Below, in pieces: positions 12,810 to 20,098 of a stretch of DNA of 64,000 nucleotides (position 1 is its first letter; every line of letters starts with the position of its first letter). Made by a program: the position numbers and the translations under genes. Where the stretch lies: the NCBI GenBank assembly GCA_016214695.1, contig JACRNY010000001.1, forward strand, positions 434,001 through 498,000. The letters run 5' to 3'. The notes under the pieces are model-generated. The model did not search any database, was not told the DNA's origin, and was given only the letters and a program-made list of their open reading frames with translations. Source of the DNA: Nitrosomonadales bacterium (GTDB taxonomy: Bacteria; Pseudomonadota; Gammaproteobacteria; Burkholderiales; Gallionellaceae).

Positions 12810-13145
12810 TTAAATACAGCCAGTCGGCTTCGGCAGACCGGCGATCTTGCACGCCTGCTTACCCGGGCCGTACGGGAACAGACCGTACAGATACTCGCTG
12901 GTGCCCTTCTCGGCGCCCAGCTTCTTGCCGATAGCCTTGGTCAGCACGCGCACAGCCGGAGCGATCTGATATTCCTCGAAGTACTCGCGCAGGAAGTTGA
13001 CCACTTCCCAGTGCTGTTCGGTCATGGTGATGCTTTCAGTTTGCGCCATGTAGTTCGCAACGTCGGTATTCCAATCGGCCAGATTGATCAGATAACCTTC
13101 TTCGTCTGTTTCGTAGGTTTTGCCTGCGACTTCGATGCTTGCCAT
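12810..13145 (-). CDS. dsrC: DsrC, sulfur carrier protein with both redox cysteines
   Basis: 111 residues, standard length. The C-terminal arm keeps both functional cysteines, C99 and C110, ten residues apart in QACKIAGLPKPTGCI. The family core (DEEGYLINLADW, HWEVVNFLREYF, LFPYGPGKQACK) is intact. DsrC accepts persulfide sulfur from the TusA/DsrEFH relay and is the co-substrate of DsrAB and DsrK. The gene lies between dsrH and dsrM and has an AAGGAG site. It is the active paralogue; the copy at 17768 has neither cysteine. Confidence 0.97.
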   Translation of the reverse strand: MASIEVAGKTYETDEEGYLINLADWNTDVANYMAQTESITMTEQHWEVVNFLREYFEEYQIAPAVRVLTKAIGKKLGAEKGTSEYLYGLFPYGPGKQACKIAGLPKPTGCI

Positions 13146-15333: not shown

Positions 15334-16626
15334 TTAAGCTTGCTTCTTGGCTTTGATCTTGGCGACTTCATCGTCCCAGCCGTCGGTACGGACGTAGGGG
15401 TTCATGCGCGGCGAATTGATCATCGCCGGATCCACTTCGATCTCCATCGCATCGAGGAAGTTGGACAAGCCGATACGCTCGATCATCTCGCCGGTACGCT
15501 CATGCTCCAGTGCGTTCTCGGCAAAGAAGTCGATGGTGCGCTGTGCGAAATCGACCAGCACCTCGACTTCTTCTTCGGTATCCAGCTTCATGAACGGGAT
15601 CACCACTGTACCCATCAGGCCGCCGATCTTCAGGTGGCTCTTGCCGCCGACCAGAACGCTTGCGCCCTTGTCTTTGCCGGGAGCCAGTGCACCGGTCATC
15701 ACGTTGATGCAGTGCATGCAGCGTACGCAATCCTGGTTGTCGATCTCGACCGCATGAGTGTCACTCACCTTGACGCTGGAGATGTGCTCGCCCTTCTTGA
15801 TCTTGCCGATCTCCTTGACCTGGAAGGTCTTGGTCGGGCAGCGAGCGACCACGTCGTTCACCAGCTCATCCATGCCGTGCTTGGCGAACCATGTCTTGGC
15901 CAGCGCTTCGTCGGTACGGATGTTGTCGCGCCATGTGCCGATCACGGCCATGTCGGCGCGCTGGATCGCGTTCATGCAGTCGTTCGGGCAGCCCGAGAAC
16001 TTGAACTTGAACTTGTACGGCAGGGAAGGACGATGCAGATCGTCGAGGAAGGTGTTCAGCACGGCACGGTGTGCCTGGGCTTCGTTGTAGCAGGACTGCT
16101 CGCAACGGGCAGCGCCGACGCAAGACATGGAAGTACGCACTGCGGGGCCCGCGCCGCCGAGGTCGAAACCCATCTCATTGAACTCGTCGAAGGCTTTCTG
16201 CACGTTCTCGGTAGTGCAACCCTGGAACATGATGTCGCCGGATTGGCCGTGGAAGGCGATCAGGCCGGAACCATGTCTCTCCCAGATGTCGCAGAACTGG
16301 CGCAGGGTGGCGGTATCGTAGTGCATACCGGGAGGAGGCATGACGCGCAGGGTATGGAACTCGGCTGCGTCCTTGAACTGGGGAGTGCCGTCTGCGTTCT
16401 TCAGTTCGGTGAAACGCGGGATGACGCCACCGCCATAACCGAACACGCCGACCGTGCCGCCCTTCCAGAAGCCCTTGCGGGTCTTGTAAGAAGCCTCGAG
16501 CTGACCCAGCAGGTCAACTGCGATGTCCTTGTCCTTGGCCAGACGTTTCAGGCCGGTGACAAAACTTGGCCATTCGCCCTTTTCGAGCTCATCCAGATTC
16601 GGGGTGTTATGCATCTTTTTCGCCAT
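15334..16626 (-). CDS. dsrA: DsrA, alpha subunit of reverse-type dissimilatory sulfite reductase
   Basis: 430 residues, the normal length. The siroheme-[4Fe-4S] ligands are seen as C-x5-C (SCVGAARCEQSC, about 173-184) and C-x3-C (FSGCPNDCMN, about 215). A ferredoxin domain follows with CVRCMHC. DsrA forms the alpha2beta2 enzyme with DsrB. It is the first gene of the minus-strand operon. Its ATG is preceded by GAAAGGATAATTATT. The promoter lies in the 295-bp divergent region to its right. Confidence 0.97.
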   Translation of the reverse strand: MAKKMHNTPNLDELEKGEWPSFVTGLKRLAKDKDIAVDLLGQLEASYKTRKGFWKGGTVGVFGYGGGVIPRFTELKNADGTPQFKDAAEFHTLRVMPPPGMHYDTATLRQFCDIWERHGSGLIAFHGQSGDIMFQGCTTENVQKAFDEFNEMGFDLGGAGPAVRTSMSCVGAARCEQSCYNEAQAHRAVLNTFLDDLHRPSLPYKFKFKFSGCPNDCMNAIQRADMAVIGTWRDNIRTDEALAKTWFAKHGMDELVNDVVARCPTKTFQVKEIGKIKKGEHISSVKVSDTHAVEIDNQDCVRCMHCINVMTGALAPGKDKGASVLVGGKSHLKIGGLMGTVVIPFMKLDTEEEVEVLVDFAQRTIDFFAENALEHERTGEMIERIGLSNFLDAMEIEVDPAMINSPRMNPYVRTDGWDDEVAKIKAKKQA

Positions 16627-16921
16627 AATAATTATCCTTTCAGTCGCGTTGCGCTAGGTTGCCCGGCGGGGGCTGGAATTCCGGTCTCTCGTACGGGTTC
16701 TGGCTTGCTGCTGCCGACCCGGTTTCTTAATGGTCCCGCATGTTACGGTTCCGCAACAAGCCTAACCATCACCCAGAGCGGGTATCCAAGGTAACCCTAA
16801 AGGGTGGTAGTTTTCCCTTCCCCGGTAGTATTTCAATACTGAACATATTGGCGCTAGACTTGCACCATCTATACATTGCCCGTTATCGTCCCGTTCTGGT
16901 CCGACGAACGGAAAGGTAAAC
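16627..16921. promoter_or_regulatory. Divergent control region between dsrA and the Cas6-like/sulfur-carrier operon
   Basis: 295 bp without a gene. It must hold the dsr operon promoter on the minus strand, which I cannot place with confidence. On the plus strand a plausible sigma-70 promoter reads TTGGCG at 16848-16853, a 16-bp spacer, then TATACA at 16870-16875. This puts a start about 40 bp ahead of the gene at 16922. A dyad AGTATT-TC-AATACT lies at 16827-16840, just upstream of that -35, and is a candidate operator for either direction. Confidence 0.6.
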
Positions 16922-17137
16922 ATGGCACAAATCACCGAACTTAGCAAAATCCAGGTTCCGTTAGGCGGACAACAGATCGAGCTGCAACAGATCGACCACG
17001 CCGAGGACGGGATGAGTATGTTGCGCGTTCGCATCCGGGAAGGCAAACGTTTCACGATCTTCGATATCGACCCGGCCACAGCCGCTGAATGGGCGACCAC
17101 CATGCAGCAATGGGCACAGACACAGGAGCGCAAGTGA
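16922..17137 (+). CDS. Small conserved-looking protein of unknown function
   Basis: 71 residues, soluble, no cysteines, no signal. The sequence alternates hydrophobic and charged residues (MLRVRIREGKRFTIFDIDPATAAEWA), suggesting a small beta-alpha fold. The start is an ATG after GGAAAGGTAAAC. It is the first gene of the plus-strand operon facing dsrA. Its stop codon overlaps the GTG start of the Cas6-like gene (GTGA), so the two are translationally coupled. I do not recognise a function. Confidence 0.8.
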   Translation: MAQITELSKIQVPLGGQQIELQQIDHAEDGMSMLRVRIREGKRFTIFDIDPATAAEWATTMQQWAQTQERK

Positions 17138-17736
17138 GCACGCTGAAGGTTGAGATGATAGACCTGGTGTTCGACCTGCGCGGGGAGACCCTGCCGCTGG
17201 ATTACCCATTCGCCCTGTGGGAAGAATTGGCGCGGCTTGCGCCCGGATTGGCGGAAAGCGAAGATGTCGGCGTGTTGCCACTGAAGGTCGCGGAAAACAA
17301 GGAATTCGCGTTGTTGCCCAAGCGTACCAAGCTGGTCCTGCGTCTGCCGGCCAGCCTGTCCGGGGTCGCGGCGAACCTGAGCGGCGCACAACTGGACATC
17401 TCGGCCAGCGTCCTGTCGCTGGGCGAGGTAAAAAGACGGGAGATACAGGCCCACCCCACCCTGCATGCGCAACTGGCAGCGGGGGGCGCGGACGAACTTG
17501 AATTCATGGAGTCAGTACAAGCTCACTTCAGCGCACTGGAGATCAGTGCCAATACGATCTGCGGCAGACGCCGTACGTTGAGCGATGGGAGGCAGTCGAT
17601 CAGCGGTTACAGCCTGGTGGTGCACGACCTCAAGCCGGAAGCTTCCATACTGCTGCAAAGCGTGGGCATGGGAGAAGGAAGGCGGTTCGGTTGCGGCATC
17701 TTCATGCCTTACAAGGTCATCTCCGATCTGGAGTGA
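17134..17736 (+). CDS. Cas6/Cmx6-like RNA endonuclease homologue, solitary
   Basis: 200 residues from a GTG at 17134 that overlaps the previous stop and has AGGAG 6 bp ahead. Sequence blocks match the type I-MYXAN Cas6/Cmx6 family: ALLPKRTKLVLRLPASL (59-75), AHPTLHAQL (106-114, H107 a candidate catalytic residue), ICGRRRTL, and the C-terminal glycine-rich loop GMGEGRRFGCG (178-188). That loop fits the Cas6 pattern GxGx5GxG. Cas6 proteins bind and cut hairpin RNA in CRISPR transcripts. No other cas gene and no CRISPR array is present in the window. It lies between a 71-aa gene and a DsrC paralogue, so its RNA target is unknown. Confidence 0.8.
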   Translation: MSTLKVEMIDLVFDLRGETLPLDYPFALWEELARLAPGLAESEDVGVLPLKVAENKEFALLPKRTKLVLRLPASLSGVAANLSGAQLDISASVLSLGEVKRREIQAHPTLHAQLAAGGADELEFMESVQAHFSALEISANTICGRRRTLSDGRQSISGYSLVVHDLKPEASILLQSVGMGEGRRFGCGIFMPYKVISDLE

Positions 17737-17767: not shown

Positions 17768-18097
17768 ATGGGATACGTAGTTGCCGGAAACGAACTGGAA
17801 ACCAATGACGAAGGCTACCTGCTGGAGCCGGATTACAGCGAAGAGGTCGTCAACGTGATCGCGGCGGCCGAAGGCATCACGCTGACCCCGAAGCACTGGG
17901 AAGTCATCAATTACATGCGCGAAGAGTACAAAGAGAACGGCCACACCCCGAATTTCCGCAACATGCTGAAGGGCGTCAACGAATTCTGGCCGGAGGCGGA
18001 CAGCAAAGCGCTGTACGATCTGTTCCCGATCGGCCCGGCCAAACAGGCAGCCAAGATCGCCGGCCTGCCGCAACCCCTGGGTAAGGGCGGCTACTAA
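17768..18097 (+). CDS. DsrC/TusE-family protein lacking both redox cysteines (RspA-like)
   Basis: 109 residues that align over the full length with DsrC: NDEGYLLEPDYSEEVV, KHWEVINYMREEY and LFPIGPAKQAAKIAGLPQP. Where DsrC has its first cysteine this protein has alanine (QAAKIAGL), and the C-terminus ends PLGKGGY with no cysteine. It therefore cannot carry sulfur in the known way. Cysteine-less homologues have been grouped as RspA and proposed to be regulatory. The gene follows an AAAGGAG site and is followed by a strong intercistronic hairpin and the tandem TusA gene. Confidence 0.9.
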   Translation: MGYVVAGNELETNDEGYLLEPDYSEEVVNVIAAAEGITLTPKHWEVINYMREEYKENGHTPNFRNMLKGVNEFWPEADSKALYDLFPIGPAKQAAKIAGLPQPLGKGGY

Positions 18098-18111: not shown

Positions 18112-18140
18112 CATCCGGCCAGACTTCGCTCTGCCGGATG
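18112..18140 (+). other. Intercistronic RNA hairpin between dsrC-like and tusA-tusA genes
   Basis: Inverted arms ATCCGGC...GCCGGAT, extended by AGA/TCT around a short loop, give a strong hairpin in the transcript. It is not followed by a T-run, so it does not look like a terminator. It lies 15 bp after one stop and 18 bp before the next start, just ahead of the ribosome site. It could be an mRNA stabilizer or processing site. A role as substrate for the Cas6-like protein encoded in the same operon is speculation. Confidence 0.7.
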
Positions 18141-18157: not shown

Positions 18158-18628
18158 ATGGATATGGTCAACGTAGTACTCGACATGAAGGGGCTTTCCT
18201 GCCCGAGGCCGCTCATCGGTGCGAAACGCATGGTCGACGAGCTTTCCCCCGGTCAGGTATTGCTGCTGGTATCCGATTGCCCCGGCACGCCGGACGACCT
18301 GTTCGTCTGGGCCAAGCAGACCGGCAACCAGATCCTGAAGACCGAGAAGATGCCCGAGGGCGGCACCGGTTACCACATCCAGAAGGGCCAGGCCATCCAC
18401 AAGGCCAACGTCACCCTGGACATCCGTGGCGCGGTCTGCCCAGGCCCCATCGTTGAAGCCAAGAAGCTGCTGAACGGCATGCAGAACGGCGAAATCCTGC
18501 GCCTGGTCAGCGACTGTCCCGGTGTGGAATCCGACATCGGCGGCTGGGCTTCCGCAACCGGCATGACCCTGGTGGAAGGCATCGAACCCGAACCCGGCGT
18601 GCACGAGTTCTACATCCGCAAAGGCTGA
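18158..18628 (+). CDS. Tandem TusA-TusA sulfur carrier protein
   Basis: 156 residues made of two complete TusA/SirA domains, about 1-77 and 83-156. Each domain has its conserved CPxP cysteine: GLSCPRP with C15 and GAVCPGP with C94. Each also has a second SDCPG cysteine. TusA proteins carry persulfide sulfur from rhodaneses or cysteine desulfurase to acceptors such as DsrEFH. TusA is normally a single domain of about 80 residues, so this is a fusion. The start ATG follows AAGGAG. Placement beside dsr fits a donor role to DsrE/DsrC or to the cysteine-less DsrC paralogue. Confidence 0.92.
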   Translation: MDMVNVVLDMKGLSCPRPLIGAKRMVDELSPGQVLLLVSDCPGTPDDLFVWAKQTGNQILKTEKMPEGGTGYHIQKGQAIHKANVTLDIRGAVCPGPIVEAKKLLNGMQNGEILRLVSDCPGVESDIGGWASATGMTLVEGIEPEPGVHEFYIRKG

Positions 18629-18631
18629 CCG

Positions 18632-19228
18632 TTGCGCATCAAGAGCACCTGGTTCAAGGAAGGCCGCGAACGCACACCGCAGGAGATTTCGGATGCCCTG
18701 TCGTTCACGATCTCGCGCATCGCCGACAACGCACTGAAGAACACGCGCAAGGCGAAGTTCGAGATTGAGGTAGGCCCGCAGTATCTCGACTTCCTCGGTG
18801 AATTTCTGGCTTTCCTCATCCTCGTCGCCGACCGCATCGCCTACCGCGACCTGCCGGCCGAGGATCGTGCCGTCTTCACCGGCAACCTGGCCAACCGCGT
18901 CGGCGAGACCTATGCCGAGAACCGCAGCCGCCTGCTCGAACAGGACTACAAGGAGTGCAAACAGCGCTTCATCGACCTGATCAACCAGCGCGCCGGCGAA
19001 TATGCCGATTTCGGCTATGACGAAAAAGGCCCGGATTACGGCTTCTACCGCTACCTGGCCTACTGTATCGGCAACGTGCTCAGCGAAGCGGACGCCAACT
19101 GGGTCATCGACCCGATGATCAGCTTCGAGGCGCCGGAAGCGGTGCAGATGGTAGAGAAGACCCTGCGCGGCCTGAACGAGGCCGAACCGCGCAAGCCGCG
19201 CCGCCGCGCTTCCGCCGGCGGGGACTGA
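18632..19228 (+). CDS. Protein of unknown function in the sulfur-carrier operon
   Basis: 198 residues starting at a TTG 4 bp after the tusA-tusA stop; no ATG alternative fits the N-terminus well. The sequence is largely helical (EISDALSFTISRIADNALKN, YLDFLGEFLAFLILVADRIA), with one moderately hydrophobic stretch near 48-67. It ends in a basic tail (RKPRRRASAGGD). Two cysteines (in KECKQRF and AYCIGN) are not in a known motif. Its stop codon touches the ATG of the dioxygenase gene. I do not recognise the family. Confidence 0.82.
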   Translation: MRIKSTWFKEGRERTPQEISDALSFTISRIADNALKNTRKAKFEIEVGPQYLDFLGEFLAFLILVADRIAYRDLPAEDRAVFTGNLANRVGETYAENRSRLLEQDYKECKQRFIDLINQRAGEYADFGYDEKGPDYGFYRYLAYCIGNVLSEADANWVIDPMISFEAPEAVQMVEKTLRGLNEAEPRKPRRRASAGGD

Positions 19229-20098
19229 ATGAGCAACCCTTTCGTTCTCGACGATACCGCAGCCTATATGCGCTGGCGCGAGCAGAAGCTCGCCTGCGCC
19301 CCGCAATCGGCAAGCGACCTGATCGTCGAAGTACGCGACCCGCGCGCGCTGCAGCCGTCCGAACACGCCGCGCTGGCCGAACGCGTGCGCAACTGCAACA
19401 TGGCCATCTACGCCAGCCCCATGCACGAGGAAGACACCGACATCCTGCGCCTGTTGGGAGCGCAGTTCGGACTGCGTCAGCTCGATGCCAACTGGCTGGC
19501 GGGCGAAGACGGCGTCTCCGAGATCAAGGTGTTCGACGGCGGCACCCGCCAGAACTACATCCCCTACACCGACAAACCCATCAAGTGGCACACCGACGGC
19601 TATTACAATCCGCCGGAGCGGCAGATACGGGCCATGGTGCTGCATTGTGTGCGCTCGGCCGCCAGCGGCGGCGAGAACCGCCTGATGGACCACGAGATGG
19701 CCTATCTGATGCTGCGCGACGAAGACCCGCGGCACATCGCGGCGCTGATGCAAGCGGACGCGATGACCATCCCGGAACGGGTAGACGAAGCCGACGGCGT
19801 GCGCGCCGCGCAGAGCGGACCGGTGTTCTCGCTGGATGCCAACGGCTATCTGCACATGCGCTACACCGCGCGCACCCGCAGCATCGAATGGAAACAGGAT
19901 GCGGCGACTCGGGCAGCGGTCTCCGCACTGGAGCGCCTGCTGGCTGCGGATACCCCGCTGGTGTTCCAGGCGCGCCTAGAACCCGGCATGGGACTGCTAT
20001 GCAACAACGTGCTGCACGACCGCGGCGCCTTCACCGACGACGCCAGACACCCGCGCCTGCTCTACCGCGCCCGCTATCTCGACCGCATCGCGCTCTGA
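19229..20098 (+). CDS. TauD/TfdA-family Fe(II)/2-oxoglutarate dioxygenase
   Basis: 289 residues, about the usual family length. The iron-binding HxD motif is seen in KWHTDGYYNPP (about 118-128). The distal histidine is in NNVLHDRGAF, followed by an arginine-containing end (RLLYRARYLDR) for 2-oxoglutarate. The substrate cannot be read from the sequence; taurine, sulfonates and betaines are known for the family. It starts directly at the stop of the preceding gene (TGAATG), so it belongs to the sulfur-carrier operon. A link to organosulfur use is inference. Confidence 0.87.
   Translation: MSNPFVLDDTAAYMRWREQKLACAPQSASDLIVEVRDPRALQPSEHAALAERVRNCNMAIYASPMHEEDTDILRLLGAQFGLRQLDANWLAGEDGVSEIKVFDGGTRQNYIPYTDKPIKWHTDGYYNPPERQIRAMVLHCVRSAASGGENRLMDHEMAYLMLRDEDPRHIAALMQADAMTIPERVDEADGVRAAQSGPVFSLDANGYLHMRYTARTRSIEWKQDAATRAAVSALERLLAADTPLVFQARLEPGMGLLCNNVLHDRGAFTDDARHPRLLYRARYLDRIAL

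Follow-up and report, generated by a model that had tools for sequence, protein, structure and literature searches.

The window analyzed here, a 64-kb stretch of DNA, harbors a cas6 gene in an operon that is divergent from dsrA, the first gene of a dsr operon. The genes and features of the locus are as follows.

12810-13145, minus strand: canonical DsrC of the dsr operon, ending in GCI (sequence and DsrC comparison).
15334-16626, minus strand: dsrA, the divergent neighbor and first gene of the dsr operon (sequence and locus comparison).
16627-16921, no strand assigned: divergent promoter region between dsrA and the DUF6967 gene, with a conserved palindrome at about 16790-16808 (sequence and 73-locus alignment).
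16922-17137, plus strand: DUF6967 protein of 71 aa (PF22295, 1.6e-31; AlphaFold2).
17134-17736, plus strand: dsr-linked Cas6 of 200 aa (PF09559, TIGR02807, PADLOC, 8fcj_B and AlphaFold2).
17768-18097, plus strand: cysteine-less DsrC paralogue ending in KGGY (PF04358, 7.5e-34; TIGR03342; C-terminus kept in relatives).
18158-18628, plus strand: two-domain TusA-like protein (PF01206, two stretches).
18632-19228, plus strand: 198-aa protein, conserved in its place in the operon across the window's order (locus comparison; no Pfam match).
19229-20098, plus strand: TauD/TfdA-family dioxygenase (PF02668, 1.8e-18).

An earlier note, made from the letters of this DNA, had described the open reading frame at 17134-17736 as a solitary Cas6/Cmx6-like RNA endonuclease, translationally coupled to a 71-aa protein and suggestive of a Cas6 fold recruited for RNA processing or RNA-binding control linked to sulfur trafficking. 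The gene begins with GTG and shares four bases (GTGA) with the stop of the 71-aa gene before it, in keeping with the coupling described in the note. The genes that follow were also read correctly; Pfam and NCBIfam families agree on a cysteine-less DsrC, a two-domain TusA, a protein without a Pfam match and a TauD-like dioxygenase.

The product of 17134-17736 is a true Cas6-family protein. It matches the Pfam Cas6 model PF09559 at 3.1e-49 (168 bits, cut-off 26.7) and the NCBIfam model TIGR02807 (cas6_cmx6, type I-MYXAN) with 128.2 bits (cut-off 98.85). Six Cas6 models of PADLOC match it as well, and among solved structures its sequence matches PDB 8fcj_B at 8e-14. An AlphaFold2 model built from 35 sequences (mean pLDDT 92.5, pTM 0.87) has the tandem RAMP fold of Cas6. 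The best Foldseek match of this model is again 8fcj_B (TM 0.86-0.87, identity 25-26%), followed by Cas6 of Pyrococcus, Thermus, E. coli and others, and the top 41 rows are all Cas6, Cse3 or Cascade structures. The profile search and the structure prediction that the note had proposed as checks therefore both favor its assignment, and the predicted fold is not an unrelated one. The glycine-rich C-terminal loop and the other sequence blocks named in the note are present; the loop is kept in relatives, with G178, G180, G186 and G188 each found in at least 149 of 150 aligned rows.

The window protein and type I-MYXAN Cas6/Cmx6 (TIGR02807, PF09559) thus belong to a common family by curated models and have the glycine-rich loop in common. 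They differ in that the window copy is without cas neighbors, lies in an operon with a DsrC paralogue beside dsrA, and carries the branch-specific residues R64, E121, G144 and K194. The closest solved structure, 8fcj chain B (TM 0.87), is the Cas6 of a type I-B CRISPR transposon and, unlike the window protein, belongs to a Cascade complex. That a curated model names the dsr-linked gene a type I-MYXAN Cas6 serves as a warning for annotation.

Cas6 proteins are known as CRISPR RNA nucleases. A repeat search of the 64-kb window revealed no CRISPR-like array, and Pfam and NCBIfam families revealed no cas neighbors of the window gene, in agreement with the note, which had seen neither an array nor another cas gene in 64 kb. 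The genome from which the window comes (2.66 Mb, nine contigs, 99.97% complete) contains one PF09559 gene and no Cas1 match, and the strongest Cas3-core match in it (1.7e-9) falls short of the cut-off. A displaced CRISPR locus elsewhere in this genome, which the note had named as grounds against its own reading, did not appear by Cas1 or Cas3, the array search having covered the window. Within the order, 23 of the 36 Cas6 genomes gave no Cas1 match, and among genomes of other orders the same holds for 27 of 58; the 58 were hand-chosen (57 of the 81 described below, plus G784) and are all at least 90% complete. Overall, 50 of the 94 Cas6 genomes tested are without a Cas1 match, including the three of 1.0-1.1 Mb (G612, G710 and G818). 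It follows from the same counts that nearly half of the tested Cas6 genomes do carry some Cas1 match (13 of 36 and 31 of 58), several of them weak. Eight of the 36 Cas6 genomes of the order have a Cas3-core match over the cut-off.

Cas6 co-occurs with dsrA across the class, mostly beside it. In a sample of 200 genomes from the window's order, PF09559 was found in 36, DUF6967 in 36 and both in 34, while dsrA was over the cut-off in 38 and present in pieces in two more (G014 and G161). With these two counted as positive, Cas6 was found in 36 of 40 dsrA-positive genomes and in none of the 160 others (Fisher 1e-35, or 1e-31 if only dsrA over the cut-off counts as positive, relatedness being ignored in both). 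At all 36 Cas6 loci dsrA is divergent and adjacent, in G161 as a dsrA piece on the same contig. The arrangement is nearly constant. The dsr operon occupies one strand, and the divergent genes are DUF6967, Cas6, the DsrC-like gene, TusA and/or rhodanese or neither, the 198-aa protein and often the dioxygenase; DUF6967 was not found in the G135 and G173 loci. Four dsrA-positive genomes of the order lack Cas6. The contigs of G122 and G145 stop at or just past dsrA, and G083 and G132 have an intact locus without Cas6 that is also without the KGGY DsrC. As a separate observation, second dsrA-like genes without the remaining dsr operon in the fetched stretch occur at L218, L219, L220 and L221, in genomes that also own a full locus.

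Named relatives point the same way. A pattern scan of the contigs of 84,980 species yielded 412 relatives, and the best 80 of the 412 were kept; these are annotated as Gallionella, Sideroxydans, Nitrosomonadales and unplaced Proteobacteria, among others. dsrA lies divergent beside Cas6 in 75 of the 80 loci (a count that keeps duplicates), and in the remaining five the contig starts too close to Cas6 to show dsrA, under 900 bases ahead of it. The 80 include at least five loci already present in the order sample. Taken together, the order and the named loci give 116 rows, of which six are duplicates, leaving 110 distinct rows.

The possibility that this Cas6 is specific to the window's order was considered from a phylum sample of 398 genomes, in which Cas6 was found in 5 of 52 dsrA-positive genomes, all five from that order, and in none of the 346 others. 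It was ruled out by a search of the class, from whose other orders the phylum sample had contained no dsrA-positive genome. In the class sample of 274 genomes, dsrA was over the cut-off in 87, or 86 without the window's own genome, and Cas6 was found in 81 of these 86 genomes of other orders (77 of 80 and 4 of 6). Among genomes with dsrA pieces only, Cas6 was present in five of seven, being absent in G650 and G802. In four of the five misses the contig stops on the flank that should carry Cas6, at most 0.7 kb from dsrA in G642, G679 and G772 and about 1.9 kb from dsrA, after a TauD-like gene, in G692. Contig ends do not explain all five, since in G776 (86% complete) the contig continues for 7.8 kb next to dsrA and no Cas6 appears there. 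In 61 of the 81 genomes Cas6 and dsrA are divergent and no more than 6 kb apart. In the remaining 20 it is on another contig (19 genomes) or about 41 kb away (G678, a complete genome of 1.4 Mb). Because dsrA is well inside its contig in some of the 19, adjacency of Cas6 and dsrA is usual but not universal.

Outside the class the picture is different. PF09559 was not found in the 47 dsrA-positive genomes of the phylum sample that lie outside the order, none of which belong to the class. These 47 cannot all be taken as fair controls, since only 5 of the 19 loci fetched from them contain a full dsr operon (L278-L282). In thirteen of the 19 (L283-L292 and L294-L296), dsrA, dsrB and dsrL were the only genes of the operon recognized, and L293 shows dsrABEFH but not the rest. 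A small protein and a TauD-like gene accompany four of the five full operons, with DUF6967 in addition in L278, L281 and L282. Full dsr loci without Cas6 outside the class, together with G776, indicate that the pathway can probably run without Cas6.

A frequent companion of Cas6 is the DsrC paralogue. The protein encoded at 17768-18097 has no cysteine and thus lacks the C-terminal cysteines of a redox-active DsrC. Its KGGY end is found in 111 of 113 DsrC-like rows from the order and the named loci, whereas true DsrC ends in GCV or GCI. In a count of 113 rows that keeps duplicates, 93 contain no cysteine, 19 contain one and 1 contains two. Forty loci were fetched from other orders, 37 of them picked with both genes on one contig; 37 of 40 is therefore no fair rate of linkage, for which the 61 of 81 given above is used instead. 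A KGGY DsrC is directly downstream of Cas6 in 32 of the 40 (29 cysteine-free, 3 with one cysteine), and no DsrC-like gene was found in that position in the other 8. DsrC-family proteins without redox cysteines, which we take to be those called RspA, are known; the window paralogue differs from them by its KGGY end and its place next to Cas6. No sulfur paper with the name RspA was found in the open-licence literature. A KGGY-type DsrC is also encoded at L278, outside the class, in a genome in which PF09559 was not found. The paralogue can therefore exist without Cas6, and the pair is not obligatory.

Other genes also accompany Cas6. Of the 40 loci fetched from other orders, 33 carry a TauD-like gene on the same strand as Cas6. 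The set that recurs there, close to dsrA, is made up of Cas6, a KGGY-type DsrC, a small protein and a TauD-like gene. The two-domain TusA went undetected in these 40 loci, and in about half of the order's loci a rhodanese protein takes its place (the rhodanese family was tested on one protein). A survey of co-occurrence, as the note had suggested, thus ties Cas6 to dsrA and to the KGGY DsrC, but not to TusA as a constant companion. The 198-aa protein, which has no Pfam match at E 1, is present in the window and in each of the 37 further loci fetched from the order. Another recurring protein, about 65 aa long and with a motif like DVKPxxxDTPxxW, lies between the TauD-like gene and Cas6 or DUF6967 in L278, L280-L282, L238 and other loci; neither of the two members tested has a significant Pfam match. 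DUF6967 is modeled by AlphaFold2 (pLDDT 92.4) as four strands and a helix. PUR proteins lead its Foldseek list, with 14 of the top 20 matches and probabilities of up to 0.99. The DUF6967 model thus resembles PUR-repeat nucleic-acid-binding domains such as those of PUR-alpha, a likeness that is unproven and below significance (best E 0.27). DUF6967 gave no PUR match in sequence searches.

The dsr-linked Cas6 proteins form a branch of their own. In a quick tree of 44 dsr-linked sequences and 8 comparators (8fcj, one Gloeobacter plasmid gene, and six plasmid-borne cas6 genes with cas3 and cas8 or cmx8 as neighbors), the split between the two sets has SH-aLRT 99 and a branch of 0.74. Rows of other orders group together with 97, and rows of the window's order with only 33. 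The Gloeobacter plasmid gene (L188, 2953-3744) is itself a Cas6/Cmx6 without annotated cas neighbors in its 6.6-kb stretch, near PAPS-reductase-family and cupin genes. Residues were counted over 150 rows, the 110 distinct rows from the window's order and the named loci plus 40 from other orders. R70 is present in all 150, R64, E121 and G144 in 149 each and K194 in 147, whereas R64 occurs in one of the eight comparators and E121, G144 and K194 in none. The gene is under purifying selection, with dN/dS of 0.27, 0.14 and 0.14 for the window copy against three relatives, the last two at dS above 1, and none of 156 Cas6 rows is shorter than 170 aa.

The residues that might cut RNA are variable. H24 and H48 are present in all 40 rows of other orders, and the window protein has Y24 and L48. 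Among the 110 rows, 22 have both histidines, 78 have Y24 without H48 and 10 are mixed; H24 as such is found in 28. In the comparators H24 occurs in seven of eight and H48 in 8fcj only. The catalytic histidine of Cas6e and Cas6f presumably lies near the place of H24 and H48, by the first helix. With both absent, the endonuclease role named in the earlier note is uncertain for the window copy, which may only bind. Judged by these residues, Cas6 of the window clade probably binds RNA without cutting. The change of histidines follows related rows and may reflect very few events, so it proves little.

We put at about even the chance that this Cas6 branch has a role apart from CRISPR and assists the reverse-Dsr pathway, where it would partner the KGGY DsrC by binding RNA and, in most lineages, perhaps by cleaving it. 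A CRISPR Cas6 would have been recruited once, early in the class, and the recruited protein would bind RNA. The KGGY DsrC, which is without the usual cysteines for carrying sulfur, may dock to the Dsr machinery or report its state. Together Cas6 and the KGGY DsrC, here perhaps with the PUR-like DUF6967, would bind a specific RNA and, in most lineages, cleave it; such binding or cleavage would adjust the expression of sulfur genes. In the window clade, with the histidines gone, only the binding step would probably remain. Of the recruitment to sulfur metabolism proposed in the note, the fold, the CRISPR-free context and the class-wide link to sulfur genes are now seen, and the activity on RNA is putative. 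A role of a DsrC protein in regulation has a precedent, since in Allochromatium vinosum the DNA upstream of the dsr cluster is bound by DsrC, as stated in PMC5944118; that the KGGY form might act likewise is our extrapolation. In Sideroxydans lithotrophicus the dsr genes are upregulated on thiosulfate according to PMC8788666, whose main text does not contain the word CRISPR. A more specific version is less likely than not: a Cas6 that has left CRISPR could have become a conserved regulator of bacterial energy metabolism, assembling with the KGGY DsrC, a look-alike of a sulfur carrier, into a small ribonucleoprotein. By sensing the flow of sulfur and cutting or holding one specific RNA, this particle would set reverse-Dsr activity throughout a class of sulfur oxidizers, small genomes included.

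It is rather unlikely, yet worth serious attention, that the Cas6 fold serves as an RNA-free protein adaptor through which the KGGY DsrC, and perhaps the dioxygenase too, is tethered to the Dsr complexes. The frequent pairing with a DsrC paralogue would suit an adaptor, as would the loss of both histidines in a large clade whose gene is still under purifying selection and the conservation of E121 and G144 only in the dsr branch. The search for an RNA element in the intercistronic gaps and the dsrA/DUF6967 region, which found none, also leans this way. A hairpin at 18112-18140, in the gap between the DsrC-like and tusA genes, folds well but was rejected as a Cas6 substrate; some close relatives have a hairpin at this place whose sequence is unrelated, and in many loci the gap is short and forms no stable fold. 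Compared with shuffles that preserve mononucleotides only, structured gaps occur downstream of dsrC and of the DsrC-like gene and in the dsrA-dsrB or dsrB-dsrE interval; no sequence shared among the structured gaps of one genome was seen by eye in 22 loci. Such gaps were set aside as substrate evidence, since they are also present in genomes without detected Cas6, where the dsrC-dsrM gap is structured in four of six loci (one of the six, L297 of G692, having a contig end near dsrA). No consensus RNA fold was found on either strand of the dsrA/DUF6967 region in 73 aligned loci, a weak negative because the rows are so diverse that the method returns almost no pairs. Rfam had no match in the window. 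What argues against an RNA-free adaptor is the near-invariance of the glycine-rich loop and of several arginines and lysines, which we assume to be the RNA-contact features of Cas6.

The note had also considered a tRNA target, with 2-thiolation in mind. That the RNA partner is a tRNA or another stable RNA, with tRNA thiolation or cleavage tied to sulfur supply, appears improbable. TusA and a DsrC/TusE relative do share the operon here, but TusA is outside the conserved core, replaced by rhodanese in about half of the order's loci and undetected in the 40 loci of other orders, which makes thiolation a weak guess. Moreover, the tie is to dsrA, and the window contains no tRNA gene. It is more doubtful still that this is a defense gene carried as a passenger in a core metabolic locus; PADLOC lists the family, but Cas6 is co-inherited with dsrA even where the two genes lie apart and is kept in small genomes. 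Least credible is a CRISPR Cas6 that still serves arrays elsewhere in the genome or is left over from a displaced CRISPR locus, for which the match to the equivalog model cas6_cmx6 and the Cas1 matches of 44 genomes stand against the lack of a Cas1 match in its own genome and in 50 of 94, the co-occurrence with dsrA, and a branch apart from comparators of which six lie beside cas3 and cas8 or cmx8, the search for arrays having covered the window.

A Cas6 that accompanies dsrA in more than 100 genomes and is kept without Cas1 would be a rare case of a CRISPR protein in core metabolism, and a testable missing player in reverse-Dsr sulfur oxidation. Its presence, CRISPR-free, beside the reverse sulfite reductase genes of sulfur-oxidizing proteobacteria points to a possibly RNA-linked step in bacterial sulfur metabolism. 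No paper linking Cas6 to dsr genes was among the matches listed in the open-licence literature.

Two further features of these loci were observed. Strong short hairpins follow dsrC, in the dsrC-dsrM gap, in many loci (L251, L254, L257, L259 and others), and perhaps protect the dsrC message. The palindrome in the dsrA/DUF6967 promoter region (window 16790-16808, 73 loci) is of the TAACCCTNANGGGTGGT type, takes the form TACCC-N4-GGGTA in some other lineages, and is possibly the operator of a regulator.
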